This document shows positions 1-48,494 of a stretch of DNA of 64,000 nt, piece by piece (positions within the stretch are counted from its first letter, which is position 1; every line of letters starts with the position of its first letter). Source of the DNA: Propionispora vibrioides (GTDB taxonomy: Bacteria; Bacillota; Negativicutes; Propionisporales; Propionisporaceae); NCBI RefSeq assembly GCF_900110485.1, contig NZ_FODY01000022.1, positions 1 to 64,000 on the forward strand. Reading direction: 5' to 3'. Position numbers and translations under genes: made by a program. The notes under the pieces are model-generated. The model saw only the letters and a program-made list of their open reading frames with translations, did not search any database and was not told the origin of the DNA.

Positions 1-150
1 ATTCACACTGCACATCCTGGCGGATCTTTTTCCGTCTGGCTGCGTCAGCAAAACCTTGAAATAGGGACCGCTATTCCTGCGGTTTTACTTCCTTGCCAGC
101 CGAAAAAATCTCTCGCCAGGCCGGCAGACTCATTAAATCAGCGGTTCCCC
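1..150 (-). repeat. Family A foldback repeat, copy 1 (cut by window start)
   Basis: Intergenic repeat of the family also found at 12567-12733, 34640-34745, 37924-38088, 40371-40454 and 48059-48219. The right end carries the terminal inverted repeat AAATCAGCGGTTCCC; the other end lies before base 1. The interior contains the shared block GTCTGGCTGCGTCAG and an arm pair that folds into a long hairpin. It codes for nothing visible. It is inverted relative to the copies at 37924 and 48059. Confidence 0.8.
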
Positions 151-257
151 AGGGAAATCCCCTTATATAAAATATACCGTGCTTAATTTGGCTTTTGTTG
201 TTTTGTTTTTAGTGTTGGTTTATATTAGTACTGAATTGACAAAAAGGCGGTATAGCT

Positions 258-12560: not shown

Positions 12561-12566
12561 AGCCTT

Positions 12567-12733
12567 AGGGAACCACTGATTTATTCACACTGCACAGCCT
12601 GGCGAATCTTCTTCCGTCTGGCTGCGTCAGCTAAACCTTGAAATAGGGACCGCTATTCCTGCGGTTTTACTTCCCTGCCAGCCGAAAAAATCTCTCGCCA
12701 GCCTGGCAGGCTTATTAAACCAGCAGTTCCCCT
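12567..12733 (-). repeat. Family A foldback repeat, copy 2
   Basis: Complete 167-bp copy with ends AGGGAACCACTGATTTA and AAACCAGCAGTTCCCCT. Nearly identical in the middle to copy 1 and in the same orientation. It fills the gap between the mutY terminator and the end of the convergent gene at 12745. The left end is preceded by T, giving a TA junction. Confidence 0.85.
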
Positions 12734-12744
12734 GGGACAGACCA

Positions 12745-22069: not shown

Positions 22070-23182
22070 ATGCTGACTCGGCCGGTATGGGCTGAAATCA
22101 ATATGGCGGCTATTGAGCACAATATCAGAAATATAAAGGCATTATTACAGCCTAAGACTAAATTTTGTGCCGTGGTAAAAGCCGATGGCTATGGCCACGG
22201 CGCGGTGGAAGTGGCCAGGCTGGCCCTGAAGGAAGGGGCCGATTATCTAGCGGTAGCACTTTTGAGTGAGGCTATTGAATTGCGTCAGGCCGGCGTGACG
22301 GCGCCGCTCTTAATTTTGGGTTATACGCCGCCGGAGCAGGCGCAGTTGCTCGTCGCTTATCAGATTACCCAGACAGTCTATAGTGAGGATATGGTCAGGG
22401 CTTTGTCGCGGGCAGCCACACACAGCGGCAAGCTGGCCAAGGTCCATATAAAAATAGATACAGGTATGGGGCGCATCGGCATCCGGCCGGAGGAAGCGGT
22501 GGTTTTTGCCCGGTTTGTCAGGGACTGTCCGGGACTCGAGCTGGAAGGGGTATTTTCACATTTAGCGGCAGCCGACAGCCAGGATAAGAGCTATGCTTAC
22601 CGCCAGTATGCACTGTTTACGGCGGCGCTCCGGATGATTGAGGAGGCCGGCATTGCGGTGCCGCTCCGGCATATAGCCAATAGTGCCGCTATTTTAGACC
22701 TGCCGGACATGCAACTGGATATGGTCCGGCCCGGCATTATTTTGTACGGCCTGTTGCCTTCGGCGGAAGTACAGCCTTCTTTTTTGCTTGAACCGGCGAT
22801 GAAGCTGAAGGCGCGAATCAGTCATATCAAGGAAGTACCGGCCGGTACGGCTATCAGCTATGGCTGTACCTTTGTGACGGACAAGCCCAGTGTGATTGCC
22901 ACTTTGCCTGTAGGCTATGCCGACGGTTGGAGCCGTCTGATGGCCGGTAAGGCCAGCTTGTTGGTAAGGGGCCGGCGGGCCCCATTGGTCGGCCGTGTAT
23001 GTATGGACCAGTGCATGATTGATGTTACCCATATTCCGGAAGCCGGCGGCGGCGATGAGGTGCTGCTGTTTGGCGGGGCGGAACTGCCGGCCGACGAAGT
23101 GGCCCGCCATATGGGGACGATTAATTATGAAGTGGTTTGTATGGTCAGCAAACGAGTCCCTAGAATCTACATTCGGGCCTAG
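22070..23182 (+). CDS. alr: Alanine racemase
   Basis: PLP-dependent enzyme of 370 aa interconverting L- and D-alanine for peptidoglycan. Schiff-base lysine K37 in VVKADGYGHGA; catalytic Y264 in AISYGCTF; substrate loop GRVCMDQCMIDVT; dimer and PLP region MVRPGIILYG. Normal length. RBS GGAGGAGG precedes ATG 22070. The TAG stop is formed at the very start of a family B repeat. In a spore former the enzyme may also limit germination by L-alanine. Confidence 0.96.
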   Translation: MLTRPVWAEINMAAIEHNIRNIKALLQPKTKFCAVVKADGYGHGAVEVARLALKEGADYLAVALLSEAIELRQAGVTAPLLILGYTPPEQAQLLVAYQITQTVYSEDMVRALSRAATHSGKLAKVHIKIDTGMGRIGIRPEEAVVFARFVRDCPGLELEGVFSHLAAADSQDKSYAYRQYALFTAALRMIEEAGIAVPLRHIANSAAILDLPDMQLDMVRPGIILYGLLPSAEVQPSFLLEPAMKLKARISHIKEVPAGTAISYGCTFVTDKPSVIATLPVGYADGWSRLMAGKASLLVRGRRAPLVGRVCMDQCMIDVTHIPEAGGGDEVLLFGGAELPADEVARHMGTINYEVVCMVSKRVPRIYIRA

Positions 23183-23341
23183 TGTCTCATCCGGCAGAAA
23201 TCTGCAGCAGGCCACCGGCCTTTTTGCCGTCAGTCTTCGTTGTCGTCGACTTGCATATAACCGATATGCGCGTCTCCTCCGTCTTGCCTGACGGCAAAAA
23301 TTCTCGGTGCCATCTACATCTTTCCGCCGGATGAGACACTA
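23180..23341 (+). repeat. Family B foldback repeat, copy 1
   Basis: Perfect 15-bp terminal inverted repeats AGTGTCTCATCCGGC / GCCGGATGAGACACT, flanked by TA on both sides; the left TA is part of the alr stop codon. An inner stem pairs TTTTTGCCGTCAG with CTGACGGCAAAAA, and a core hairpin carries GCATATAACCGATATGC. No ORF. The same core with other ends recurs at 29456, 30770, 44357 and 48332. Confidence 0.85.
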
Positions 23342-30769: not shown

Positions 30770-30926
30770 TAGTACTTTGGCAGCTCCAAGCCGGTGAATA
30801 CTGACGGTCTATTTGCCGCAACCCTTCGTTGTAGTCAGTCTGCATACTTCCGGTATGCTTTTACGTCTGGTGTTGTGAAAAATAGCCTCGCCATGATCCT
30901 GCCGTTTGAGGACCGACAAGGTACTC
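30770..30926 (+). repeat. Family B foldback repeat, copy 3
   Basis: Ends TAGTACTTTGGCAG and, inverted, CTGCCGTTT...GGTACTC; imperfect. The core CTTCGTTGTAGTCAGTCTGCAT with inner hairpin GCATACTTCCGGTATGC matches copy 1. It separates the dacF-like gene from the minus-strand gene upstream. Confidence 0.65.
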
Positions 30927-34473: not shown

Positions 34474-34639
34474 CAGTACACCTCGAATGGAGAGTATCTT
34501 AAAATATTTACTATTTCGAGTTTAATAGACAATTTCCTCTTTGTTGTATGGGAAATTAAGCAGCCGTTGATTTATTTCCGGACATGTTTCTTATTGTCAG
34601 ACTTCGTTTGGGACGGTATGGAAAAAGCAAGTGAAATAT
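34474..34639. other. Gene-free stretch between divergent genes
   Basis: Holds the promoter regions of the FtsA-like gene (minus) and, further on, of the DegV gene (plus). No clear -35/-10 pair could be named. A decayed family A repeat begins near 34640. Confidence 0.4.
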
Positions 34640-34745
34640 CCCGGGGAACCGTAAAAACAGTTGGGCTAGTTTCGGGGTTTTGCTGACGTAGCCAGGCAGA
34701 AGGGATTCGTCTGGATGCACAGTGCGAATAAATCAGTGGTTCTCA
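34640..34745 (+). repeat. Family A foldback repeat, decayed copy 3
   Basis: The right end AATAAATCAGTGGTTCTC and the interior GGTTTTGCTGACGTAGCCAG match the family. The left part is shortened and altered (GGGGAACCGTAAAAACAG). Confidence 0.6.
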
Positions 34746-37310: not shown

Positions 37311-37925
37311 ATGATTACAACACTTAGTATCCGGGATTATGCCCAAAATATGGCATTGCGGCAGCCGCCGCCCGGCGGCGGCAGTACGGCGGCACTCAGT
37401 GGTCTTTTGGGCGTCAGTCTGTTGGCGATGCTGATCAATTTGGTGCTGCCTGGCGCCGCAGCGGCGCTTGACGAACCGCAACAGCAATTGGCGGCGCTTC
37501 GTGAACGGCTGCTGTCGCTGGCAGAAGAGGACGCGGCTGTTCTGGCTGACGTGCTGGCTGTATTTCAATCAGGTGCGTCAGCCGTTCATGCTGATGACCG
37601 GGCGCAGGCGGTGCTGCTGCAGGCCGCTTGCGTTCCGCTGTCCATTGCCGAGAACTGCCTGCAGGCGCTGCAGGTGGGGGAGCGGGTATTGGCGGCGCTG
37701 CCACCTCACGCGCAAGGAGATTTGCTGACGGCTGCCCTGGCTTGCCAGACCGGCATTAAGGGGGCGCTGCTAAGTGTTGCCGCCAATCTTCCCTGGCTGG
37801 CCGATGCCGGTCAGGTGGAGGAGCTAAAAGCGCGGCTGCAGGCGGTCAACGAAAACCAAGGCCGGCTTGTGGCCGGTTTGACAGACAGTATATATGCGGT
37901 GCAGCCTTATCAAATATTGCGTTAG
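37311..37925 (+). CDS. FchA/FTCD-C-like protein (methenyl-THF cyclohydrolase or cyclodeaminase)
   Basis: 204 aa, formiminotransferase-cyclodeaminase C-terminal-like family, all helical. The family motif PPPGGGSTAALSGLLG sits near the N-terminus, and LAEEDAAVLADVL follows. Family members convert methenyl-tetrahydrofolate or release ammonia from formimino-THF; the activity here is not certain. RBS AAAGGAGAG. The stop TAG is formed together with the first bases of a family A repeat. Confidence 0.8.
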   Translation: MITTLSIRDYAQNMALRQPPPGGGSTAALSGLLGVSLLAMLINLVLPGAAAALDEPQQQLAALRERLLSLAEEDAAVLADVLAVFQSGASAVHADDRAQAVLLQAACVPLSIAENCLQALQVGERVLAALPPHAQGDLLTAALACQTGIKGALLSVAANLPWLADAGQVEELKARLQAVNENQGRLVAGLTDSIYAVQPYQILR

Positions 37926-38088
37926 GGAACCGCTGATTTAATGAACCTGCCGGCCTGGTGAGAGATTTTTTCGGCTGGCAAGGAAGTAAAACCACAGGAA
38001 TAGCGGTCTCTATTTCAAGGTTTTGCTGACGCAGCCAGACGGAAAATGATCCGCCAGGCTGTGCGGTGTGATAAATCAGTGGTTCCCT
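37924..38088 (+). repeat. Family A foldback repeat, copy 4
   Basis: 165 bp, ends AGGGAACCGCTGATTTA and AAATCAGTGGTTCCCT (inverted repeats with one mismatch), flanked by TA on both sides. An inner stem pairs CGGCTGGC with GCCAGACGG. The left end shares two bases with the stop codon of the FchA-like gene. Confidence 0.88.
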
Positions 38089-38102
38089 AGACAGCCACAA
38101 AT

Positions 38103-40361: not shown

Positions 40362-40370
40362 CTATTTTCT

Positions 40371-40454
40371 AAGGAACCGCTGTTGTAAGGTGCCTGTCGT
40401 CCCGATGAAAAAAGAACAGCCAGGACGCGCAGGGTGAATAAATCAATGGTTCCT
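40371..40454 (+). repeat. Family A foldback repeat, internally deleted copy 5
   Basis: 84 bp. Both ends are kept (AAGGAACCGCTG and CAATGGTTCCT), half of the interior is missing. It lies in the promoter region of tex. Confidence 0.7.
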
Positions 40455-40622
40455 AAAATTCTTCCATTATTATACCATATTCTTTATGGAATATAGCCGG
40501 TCTGGTGCCTTATGCCACTTAAAACATAGGAAAAGCTTTGTAAGACTTTTTCGTTCCCTCGGATGGAGGAACCGGGCATATCTAAGCAATGGCAGCAAAG
40601 AGGGACCGGAAAAAGGTGAAAA

Positions 40623-44356: not shown

Positions 44357-44519
44357 TAGTGCCTCGGCGGGCGGAATAATGGAGTATAGCACCCGGGAAT
44401 TTTTGCCGATAGGCAAGGCGGAGCGGTGCGCATATCGGATATATGTAAACCGGCGACAACAAAGCCTGATGGTAAAAAGGCCGGCGATATACTCCGGGTT
44501 TTCGCTCGACGAATCACTA
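44357..44519 (-). repeat. Family B foldback repeat, copy 4
   Basis: 163 bp. Ends TAGTGCCTCGGCGGGCG and, inverted, TAGTGATTCGTCGAGCG, flanked by TA. Inner arms GGAGTATA / TATACTCC. The core matches copy 1 in reverse (GCATATCGGATATATGT, CGGCGACAACAAAG). It lies between the GGDEF gene and the CotF pair. Confidence 0.8.
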
Positions 44520-48018: not shown

Positions 48019-48058
48019 AGCGTACCTCCTTGGGTATGATTTAGGGCTTTCTTTTTTT

Positions 48059-48219
48059 GAGGAATCACTGATGTAATGAGTCTGCCGGACTGGTGAGAGA
48101 TTTTCTGTTGGGAAGAAGGTAAAACCGAAAGAATAGTTAGGCTATTTCAAGGTTTTACTGACGCAGCCCAACAGGAAAAATCCACCAAGACGTGCAGGGC
48201 GAATAAATCAATGGTTCCT
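48059..48219 (+). repeat. Family A foldback repeat, copy 6
   Basis: 161 bp, ends GAGGAATCACTGATGTAATG and AATAAATCAATGGTTCCTT. The inner stem TTTTCTGTTGGG / CCCAACAGGAAAA replaces the CGGCTGGC-type stem of other copies with changes on both arms; GTAAAACC / GGTTTTAC is the next stem inward. Confidence 0.85.
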
Positions 48220-48284
48220 TCGTACTATATATGATATGCACGATCGGACCAAATAGTTCCGGAAAATGGGGTGAGGGAGGTTGC

Positions 48285-48331: not shown

Positions 48332-48494
48332 TAGTGCAGTAACCAGCTCATATGCCGCCAAATGACTTGTCTGAATTTCCGTCTGCTGCCTTGTCGTCAA
48401 TCGGCATAGGACCCCGCTATGCCTCATTCCTCCGCCTTGCAGGCTGAAAATTCATCCTGCGTCCTTTAGCGGCATATGAACTTGTCACTACACT
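48332..48494 (+). repeat. Family B foldback repeat, copy 5
   Basis: 163 bp, terminal inverted repeats of about 25 bp with few mismatches (TAGTGCAGTAACCAGC... and the matching GACAAG...CACTT arm, both continuing into TCATATGCCGC). Core: CCTTGTCGTCAATCGGCATAG, inner hairpin GGCATAG/CTATGCC. It ends two bases before the ribosome site of the next gene. Confidence 0.8.

Follow-up and report, generated by a model that had tools for sequence, protein, structure and literature searches.

Foldback elements of Propionispora vibrioides are MITEs with a structurally conserved hairpin

The foldback elements dispersed through the DNA of Propionispora vibrioides are MITEs (non-autonomous DNA transposons), as judged by their anatomy and by insertion demonstrated at sites that are empty in a congener. 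For these elements we demonstrate mobility, duplication of the target, conservation of structure, an asymmetry between the two strands and, in relatives, ends that match those of IS. The hairpin appears to be what evolution keeps, the ends of relatives being different. The reading that we favor, and consider likely, is that IS5-type transposases move these non-autonomous elements in trans and that the elements are organized around a portable, structurally conserved core.

Results

Foldback elements in the 64-kb window

The stretch of DNA analyzed here (positions 1 to 64,000 of contig NZ_FODY01000022.1; hereafter the window) contains at least 10 related elements, four of which have a second type of end (type B, TAGTGYCTC... 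or similar) (Table 1). The original prediction had listed six copies of the first type (type A), and related sequence is indeed found at all six places, but the count was too low and some of the boundaries needed revision: the third copy, previously placed at 34640-34745, is degenerate and starts further to the left, the fifth is an internal-deletion derivative, and the first is truncated where the contig begins. The elements are small non-coding DNAs of ~165 nt (154-169 nt) with no gene inside, and each folds into one hairpin that is paired right to the termini. The copy at 37923-38089 (hereafter the named copy) forms a single end-to-end hairpin of -90.1 kcal/mol, compared with -47.4 ± 3.8 kcal/mol for shuffled sequences (z = -11.1; 0 of 200 shuffles equalled it). 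The copy at 48058-48221 also folds end to end (z = -8.9), using the different stem CTGTTGGG/CCCAACAG, which bears out the earlier observation that the inner stems of these two copies differ. In relatives, the T run of the core begins ~43 nt from the left end of the element. The elements thus have the size (<500 bp), the terminal inverted repeats and the lack of a transposase by which MITEs are recognized, and the window ORFs that were scanned contain no transposase, as had been stated.

Table 1. Foldback elements and related features in the window
Feature	Position	Strand	Remarks
Full-length type A element, named copy, ends TA-GGGAACCGCTGATTT...	37923..38089	+	R1 score 189 bits
Type A element, truncated by contig start (C22 begins within element)	1..151	-	
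Full-length type A element	12566..12734	-	
Degenerate type A element	34557..34745	+	Also in congener G002
Type A internal-deletion derivative, 87 nt	40370..40456	+	Identical deletion in congener G002
Full-length type A variant, CTGTTGGG/CCCAACAG stem	48058..48221	+	
Full-length type B element, ends TAGTGTCTC..., same core architecture	23180..23341	-	-93.6 kcal/mol
Diverged element, type B ends	30770..30926	-	
Full-length type B element, ends TAGTGCCTC...	44357..44519	+	G002 orthologous site: end remnant only
Type B element, 159 nt	48332..48490	-	G002 orthologous site: internally deleted copy
Left core motif region ATTTTTTCGGCTGGCAAGGA of named copy	37966..37985	+	

No Rfam 15 covariance model matched the window at the gathering threshold, and nine representative loci gave one sub-threshold match only, at chance level. 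The phage and plasmid collections contained no useful match to the elements, and the open-access PMC literature (a scope outside which subscription journals and ISfinder lie) yielded analogues only and no description of the hairpin core. We note separately that draft contigs start inside copies, both at position 1 of the window (C22:1) and in the congener (G002 C20:1); hairpins of this kind break short-read assemblies.

Copy number, placement and distribution

A search of the genome with a covariance model had been proposed together with the original prediction, and such a model built from 30 copies (R1) finds about 147 copies in the 4.43-Mb genome of P. vibrioides. Shortened derivatives of 63-64, 84-89 and 138 nt also occur. 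When mapped against genes, 93 of 97 copies are intergenic and lie at a median of 21 nt from gene 3' ends. They have no preferred orientation, copies between tandem genes being 39 sense to 30 antisense. The proportions of tandem, convergent and divergent spacers occupied by copies are close to those of other spacers.

R1 also matches dozens of copies in the congener G002, as well as in four genomes from a different family of the class. A deeper covariance model (R2), made from 31 diverse copies, finds elements in 139 of 380 genomes of the class (41 of 102 genera), with 137 matches in genome G154, and in 25 of 398 genomes sampled across the phylum. Throughout these relatives the length of the element is nearly constant, mostly 162-168 nt. 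When named genomes were scanned for the core motif TTTTTTCGNCNGGCAAGGAA as a pattern, matches came from Schwartzia, Selenomonas and other Selenomonadales, from Oscillospiraceae/Clostridia, repeatedly from Desulfobacterales and from one Planctomycetota MAG; the matches outside Selenomonadales have the same kind of hairpin with different terminal repeats. A single match in Akkermansiaceae looks like chance. In four loci of Desulfobacterales MAGs (L219, L249, L261 and L271), a ~142-nt form carries extra stretches of ~20-45 nt within the hairpin, giving forms of 164, 165 and 188 nt.

Pairing is conserved, and on one strand

The original prediction proposed that pairing rather than sequence is kept, and comparison of many relatives strongly supports this. 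In an alignment of 31 sequences, both members have changed in 34 of 43 pairs. The paired fraction of cells is 90.9%, compared with 71.4% after shuffling and 40-51% with the partner slid, and covariation scores 0.556, compared with at most 0.144 in the controls. The excess of paired changes persists when more copies are aligned: the 31 diverse copies contain 243 double-change cells, compared with 71.5 ± 7.4 after shuffling and 41-62 with the partner slid. In the 97 copies of the home genome there are 234 such cells compared with 131 expected under independent arms, most of them being inherited subfamily differences. A set of 92 diverse sequences (42 effective) gives standard pairing in 82% of the cells of 65 pairs, compared with 38-46% with the partner slid. 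The outer stem displays all four Watson-Crick types at many positions. The inner part is also conserved in sequence, with T5/A5, GGCAAGGAA facing TGACGCAG, and an unpaired A, and the apical stem is GGAATAG or GGCGTAG with compensating changes. Two mismatches are conserved across phyla, namely G62.A108 in 80 of the 92 sequences and A63.G107 or C63.A107 in 89 of 92 (A.G in 59 and C.A in 30).

The conservation is not the same on the two strands. With pairs picked by Watson-Crick complementarity only and both strands treated alike, the top strand has 129 G.U compared with 58 A.C cells, although the deep relatives and their orientation come from a G.U-tolerant covariance model, and marginal matches could inflate this asymmetry. 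Counted per sequence, G.U is in the majority in 67 and A.C in 12, and in 90 of 92 sequences the top strand has the more stable fold, by a mean of 18 kcal/mol. The excess of G.U over A.C on one strand indicates that it is the fold of a single strand, as RNA or single-stranded DNA, that is constrained, and a cruciform, which had been suggested as one possible selected structure, is disfavored by this asymmetry, which would not be expected of a double-stranded palindrome either.

The home genome, in which copies were collected by sequence profile only, indicates when the constraint acts. Private changes, those found in one or two copies, show no bias (25 G.U and 21 A.C), whereas variants common to at least four copies stand at 206:82 (G.U:A.C) when counted in cells; variants present in at least three copies, each counted once, give 36:30, which is no clear bias. 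Because the private changes are unbiased, the constraint seems to act on the spreading lineages of elements rather than on each resident copy after insertion. Together with the lack of gene-orientation bias, this speaks against the other structure that had been suggested, a selected RNA, as something at work in each resident copy.

In the complete genome G029, the orientation of the elements follows the GC-skew halves (33:8, p = 1e-4); in G154, orientation relative to replication is only weakly biased (61:46). Among the matches listed for G029, copies are concentrated near the inferred origin (~0.63 Mb), at 0-1.7 and 3.38-3.53 Mb, and their orientation flips at the origin.

Insertion at TA and empty sites in a congener

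The joined flanks of 20 copies were searched in G002, in which ten of the sites were occupied and six or seven were continuous. Clean empty orthologous sites with duplication of TA were found for L004, L006 and L019, and less clean ones for L005, L016 and L026. At L004, the empty site in G002 reads ATTTACTAGGAGG, and the filled site reads ATTTACTA, followed by the element (GGGAACC..GGTTCCC) and TAGGAGG; the empty sites for L006 and L019 are TCTAGA and TTACC, respectively. The last of these is compatible with a 2-bp TA duplication and not with a 4-bp one. Further, in 31 copies the bases beyond TA vary (C/T/A and G/A/T), whereas the inner G..C is fixed, the commonest target being CTA/TAG. These observations rule out a 4-bp YTAR duplication in this lineage and indicate insertion into TA, with CTAG preferred and TA duplicated. 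Near-identical copies in G251 and G284 differ in this respect and have a 4-bp YTAR-type duplication on both sides (TTAA, TTAG, CTAA, CTAG and, once, CTTG). Target-site duplication and a site that is empty elsewhere, two further marks of a MITE, are thus found as TA in comparison with G002 and as YTAR in G251 and G284. The empty sites with their target duplications indicate that the elements are mobile, in agreement with the mobility that the original prediction had raised; the dependence of that mobility on folding, raised with it, is at present the best inference. No clean empty site was found in G002 for the five copies of a synteny block of the home genome, all of which are shared or internally deleted there.

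Two insertion sites in the window coincide with the end of a gene. The stop codon of ORF 22070-23182 (alanine racemase) is the terminal TAG of an element (23180-23182), as is that of ORF 37311-37925 (FTCD_C family; 37923-37925), insertion at both ORFs being at the TA of the stop codon. Nested insertions at the TA or TTAA of a terminal repeat were also seen, either within other elements of the superfamily or precisely at their ends (L366, G251 C12; L032, G000 C1:342062; L011, G000 C14:69255).

IS5-type IS in relatives share the ends of the elements

In G284, in which the elements have ends GGAARC..TGATTAA and 4-bp YTAR duplications, we found an IS of 1273 bp with ends TTAAGGAAACACTGATTAAGTC and an intact IS5-family transposase (NF033581, 318 bits against a cut-off of 140). 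An IS in G154 has ends GGAATCACTGATAAA, which are identical to those of a local element. An autonomous IS with the same terminal repeats is therefore present for the elements of G284 and of G154; none was found for those of the home genome. Hairpins are carried by 17 of 21 genomes with this IS compared with 122 of 359 others, as raw counts that ignore relatedness. The interior of the G284 IS is without the hairpin core. This implies that the foldback elements are not fragments of a known IS, an origin that would have undone the original prediction, and that the core is not required by the transposase for movement of its own IS.

Other ends are found on the same core. Elements with GGGCGTGT ends have TA duplicated, and several Desulfobacterales copies with GAGACCTTTGCA ends are flanked by direct repeats of ~5 bp (ACCTC, TTTGC and AATAC), so that one core is joined to at least three kinds of transposon ends. 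A scan of the sequence flanking Desulfobacterales, Oscillospiraceae and Planctomycetota ends for transposases found no IS within the stretches scanned.

In the home genome we found no IS with type A ends, no DDE_3 (IS630-type) transposase and no relative of the G284 transposase (L322). An IS630/Tc1 origin, which the TA duplication might suggest, was set aside, there being no DDE_3 transposase in the genome and IS5-type ends having been found instead. The DDE_Tnp_1 genes of this genome were rejected as mobilizers, being either fragments or IS1182-like with unrelated ends. Copies of the IS1182-like transposase lie at contig ends (G000 C4:242336-243046, C12:153-863 and C45:153-863) and have ends CTCAGGCTGTCGAAGAACCC..., unrelated to the foldback elements. 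Loci with unpaired type A ends contain no IS, the scanned ORFs being ordinary genes or unmatched.

Discussion

In the reading that we favor, the outer ~20 bp would be the terminal inverted repeats on which IS5-type transposases provided in trans act, and insertion would occur at TA, with CTAG preferred, duplicating TA in the lineage of P. vibrioides and YTAR in relatives. Between the ends would lie a hairpin core of constrained length, with selection on its top strand to fold (the conserved A5/T5 stem, the G.A and A.G/C.A mismatches and the GGAATAG-type apical stem), and this core has presumably been joined to the ends of different transposons in different bacteria. An IS5-type transposase probably moved the copies of the home genome, its own IS being now absent or unseen. 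Counting against this is the 2-bp duplication of this lineage, since the families linked to an identified IS duplicate 4 bp. We infer that the element needs the fold of its core for propagation, in the form of RNA or single-stranded DNA, and that the fold is not a service to the host at resident sites; it might act by keeping the ends together in single-stranded DNA at the fork, by contacting a protein or in an RNA step. More tentatively, the core itself may be the replicating unit: a portable, strand-specific core, with mismatches conserved across phyla, could raise the spread of transposons with YTAR 4-bp, TA 2-bp and ~5-bp duplications, selection keeping the fold while the ends are exchanged. 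If true, structure and not terminal repeats would be the defining feature of such a mobile module.

Other explanations account for part of these observations. Paired changes could arise from the mechanics of palindromes, template switching or intra-hairpin repair copying one arm onto the other with no selection on the fold. Such events do occur: in one copy (L031, G000 C1:48491-48672), an inverted copy of the right arm has replaced part of the other arm and left a fresh, perfect palindrome inside the element, as a mark of template switching. Internal deletions of the hairpin are common, both as the shortened forms described above and as orthologous deletions in G002. Arm copying would, however, erase the two conserved mismatches, which persist across phyla, and does not predict an excess of G.U over A.C on one strand; we consider it unlikely as the explanation of the paired changes. 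We think it very unlikely that each copy is a working RNA element (an mRNA stabilizer, RNase III site, attenuator or terminator) that is retained because it serves the adjoining host gene. Although very stable RNA folds in intergenic positions near gene 3' ends are what such a role would lead one to expect, the sense to antisense ratio, the ordinary spacer proportions, the private changes without pairing bias and the lack of an Rfam match all argue against it.

It is also improbable that the elements move as single-stranded hairpins through an HUH-type (IS200/605, RAYT-like) or other hairpin-recognizing enzyme, the terminal repeats then being marks at the hairpin base. HUH enzymes are not known to make target duplications, whereas TA, YTAR and ~5-bp duplications are present here, the ends match those of IS5-family IS and the orientation bias in G154 is weak. 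The strand-specific fold and the orientation that follows the direction of replication in G029 would suit such movement, as would the parallel with REPINs, hairpins thought to be mobilized by RAYTs (PMC3116915, PMC3733652).

The elements stand beside the known bacterial MITEs (Correia/NEMIS, RUP, ERIC, Nezha and Chunjie; reviewed in PMC10969869 and PMC3733652), which they resemble in being short, non-coding and intergenic, in having terminal inverted repeats, target duplications and a folded transcript, and probably in being moved in trans. MITEs are usually regarded as products of IS decay that keep the ends of the parent but no conserved interior, and the interior is usually held to be unimportant. 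Here, in contrast, one core of near-constant length is common to several phyla while the ends and the duplication length vary. In Bacillota, Desulfobacterales and Planctomycetota alike, it is the interior that is ancient and conserved and the ends that vary. This makes it testable whether a foldback structure itself aids the spread of small elements, and on which strand; further, the R1 and R2 models would let annotators recognize copies now left blank and explain the assembly breaks that occur there.

Among individual families, YPAL/RU-2 of Yersinia (~167-168 bp; PMC2759123) is similarly palindromic and near-equal in length, with TA ends and TA duplication, but has no sequence relation to the foldback elements; nhmmer with a 92-copy profile gave no match to RU-2 or RU-3. 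IS5-family IS of the NF033581 group share GGAARCACTGATTAAGTC-like ends and the 4-bp YTAR duplication with the elements of class relatives, although the foldback elements do not encode a transposase, the IS lacks the core and the P. vibrioides lineage duplicates TA only. REP and REPIN sequences (GTAG or CGTC tags; PMC3733652, PMC3116915) are also dispersed hairpins that evolve within genomes, and CGTC-REPs are likewise without a known transposase, but they are 20-40 bp long with an unpaired tag, whereas the foldback elements are ~165 bp long, are paired to their ends and have target duplications.
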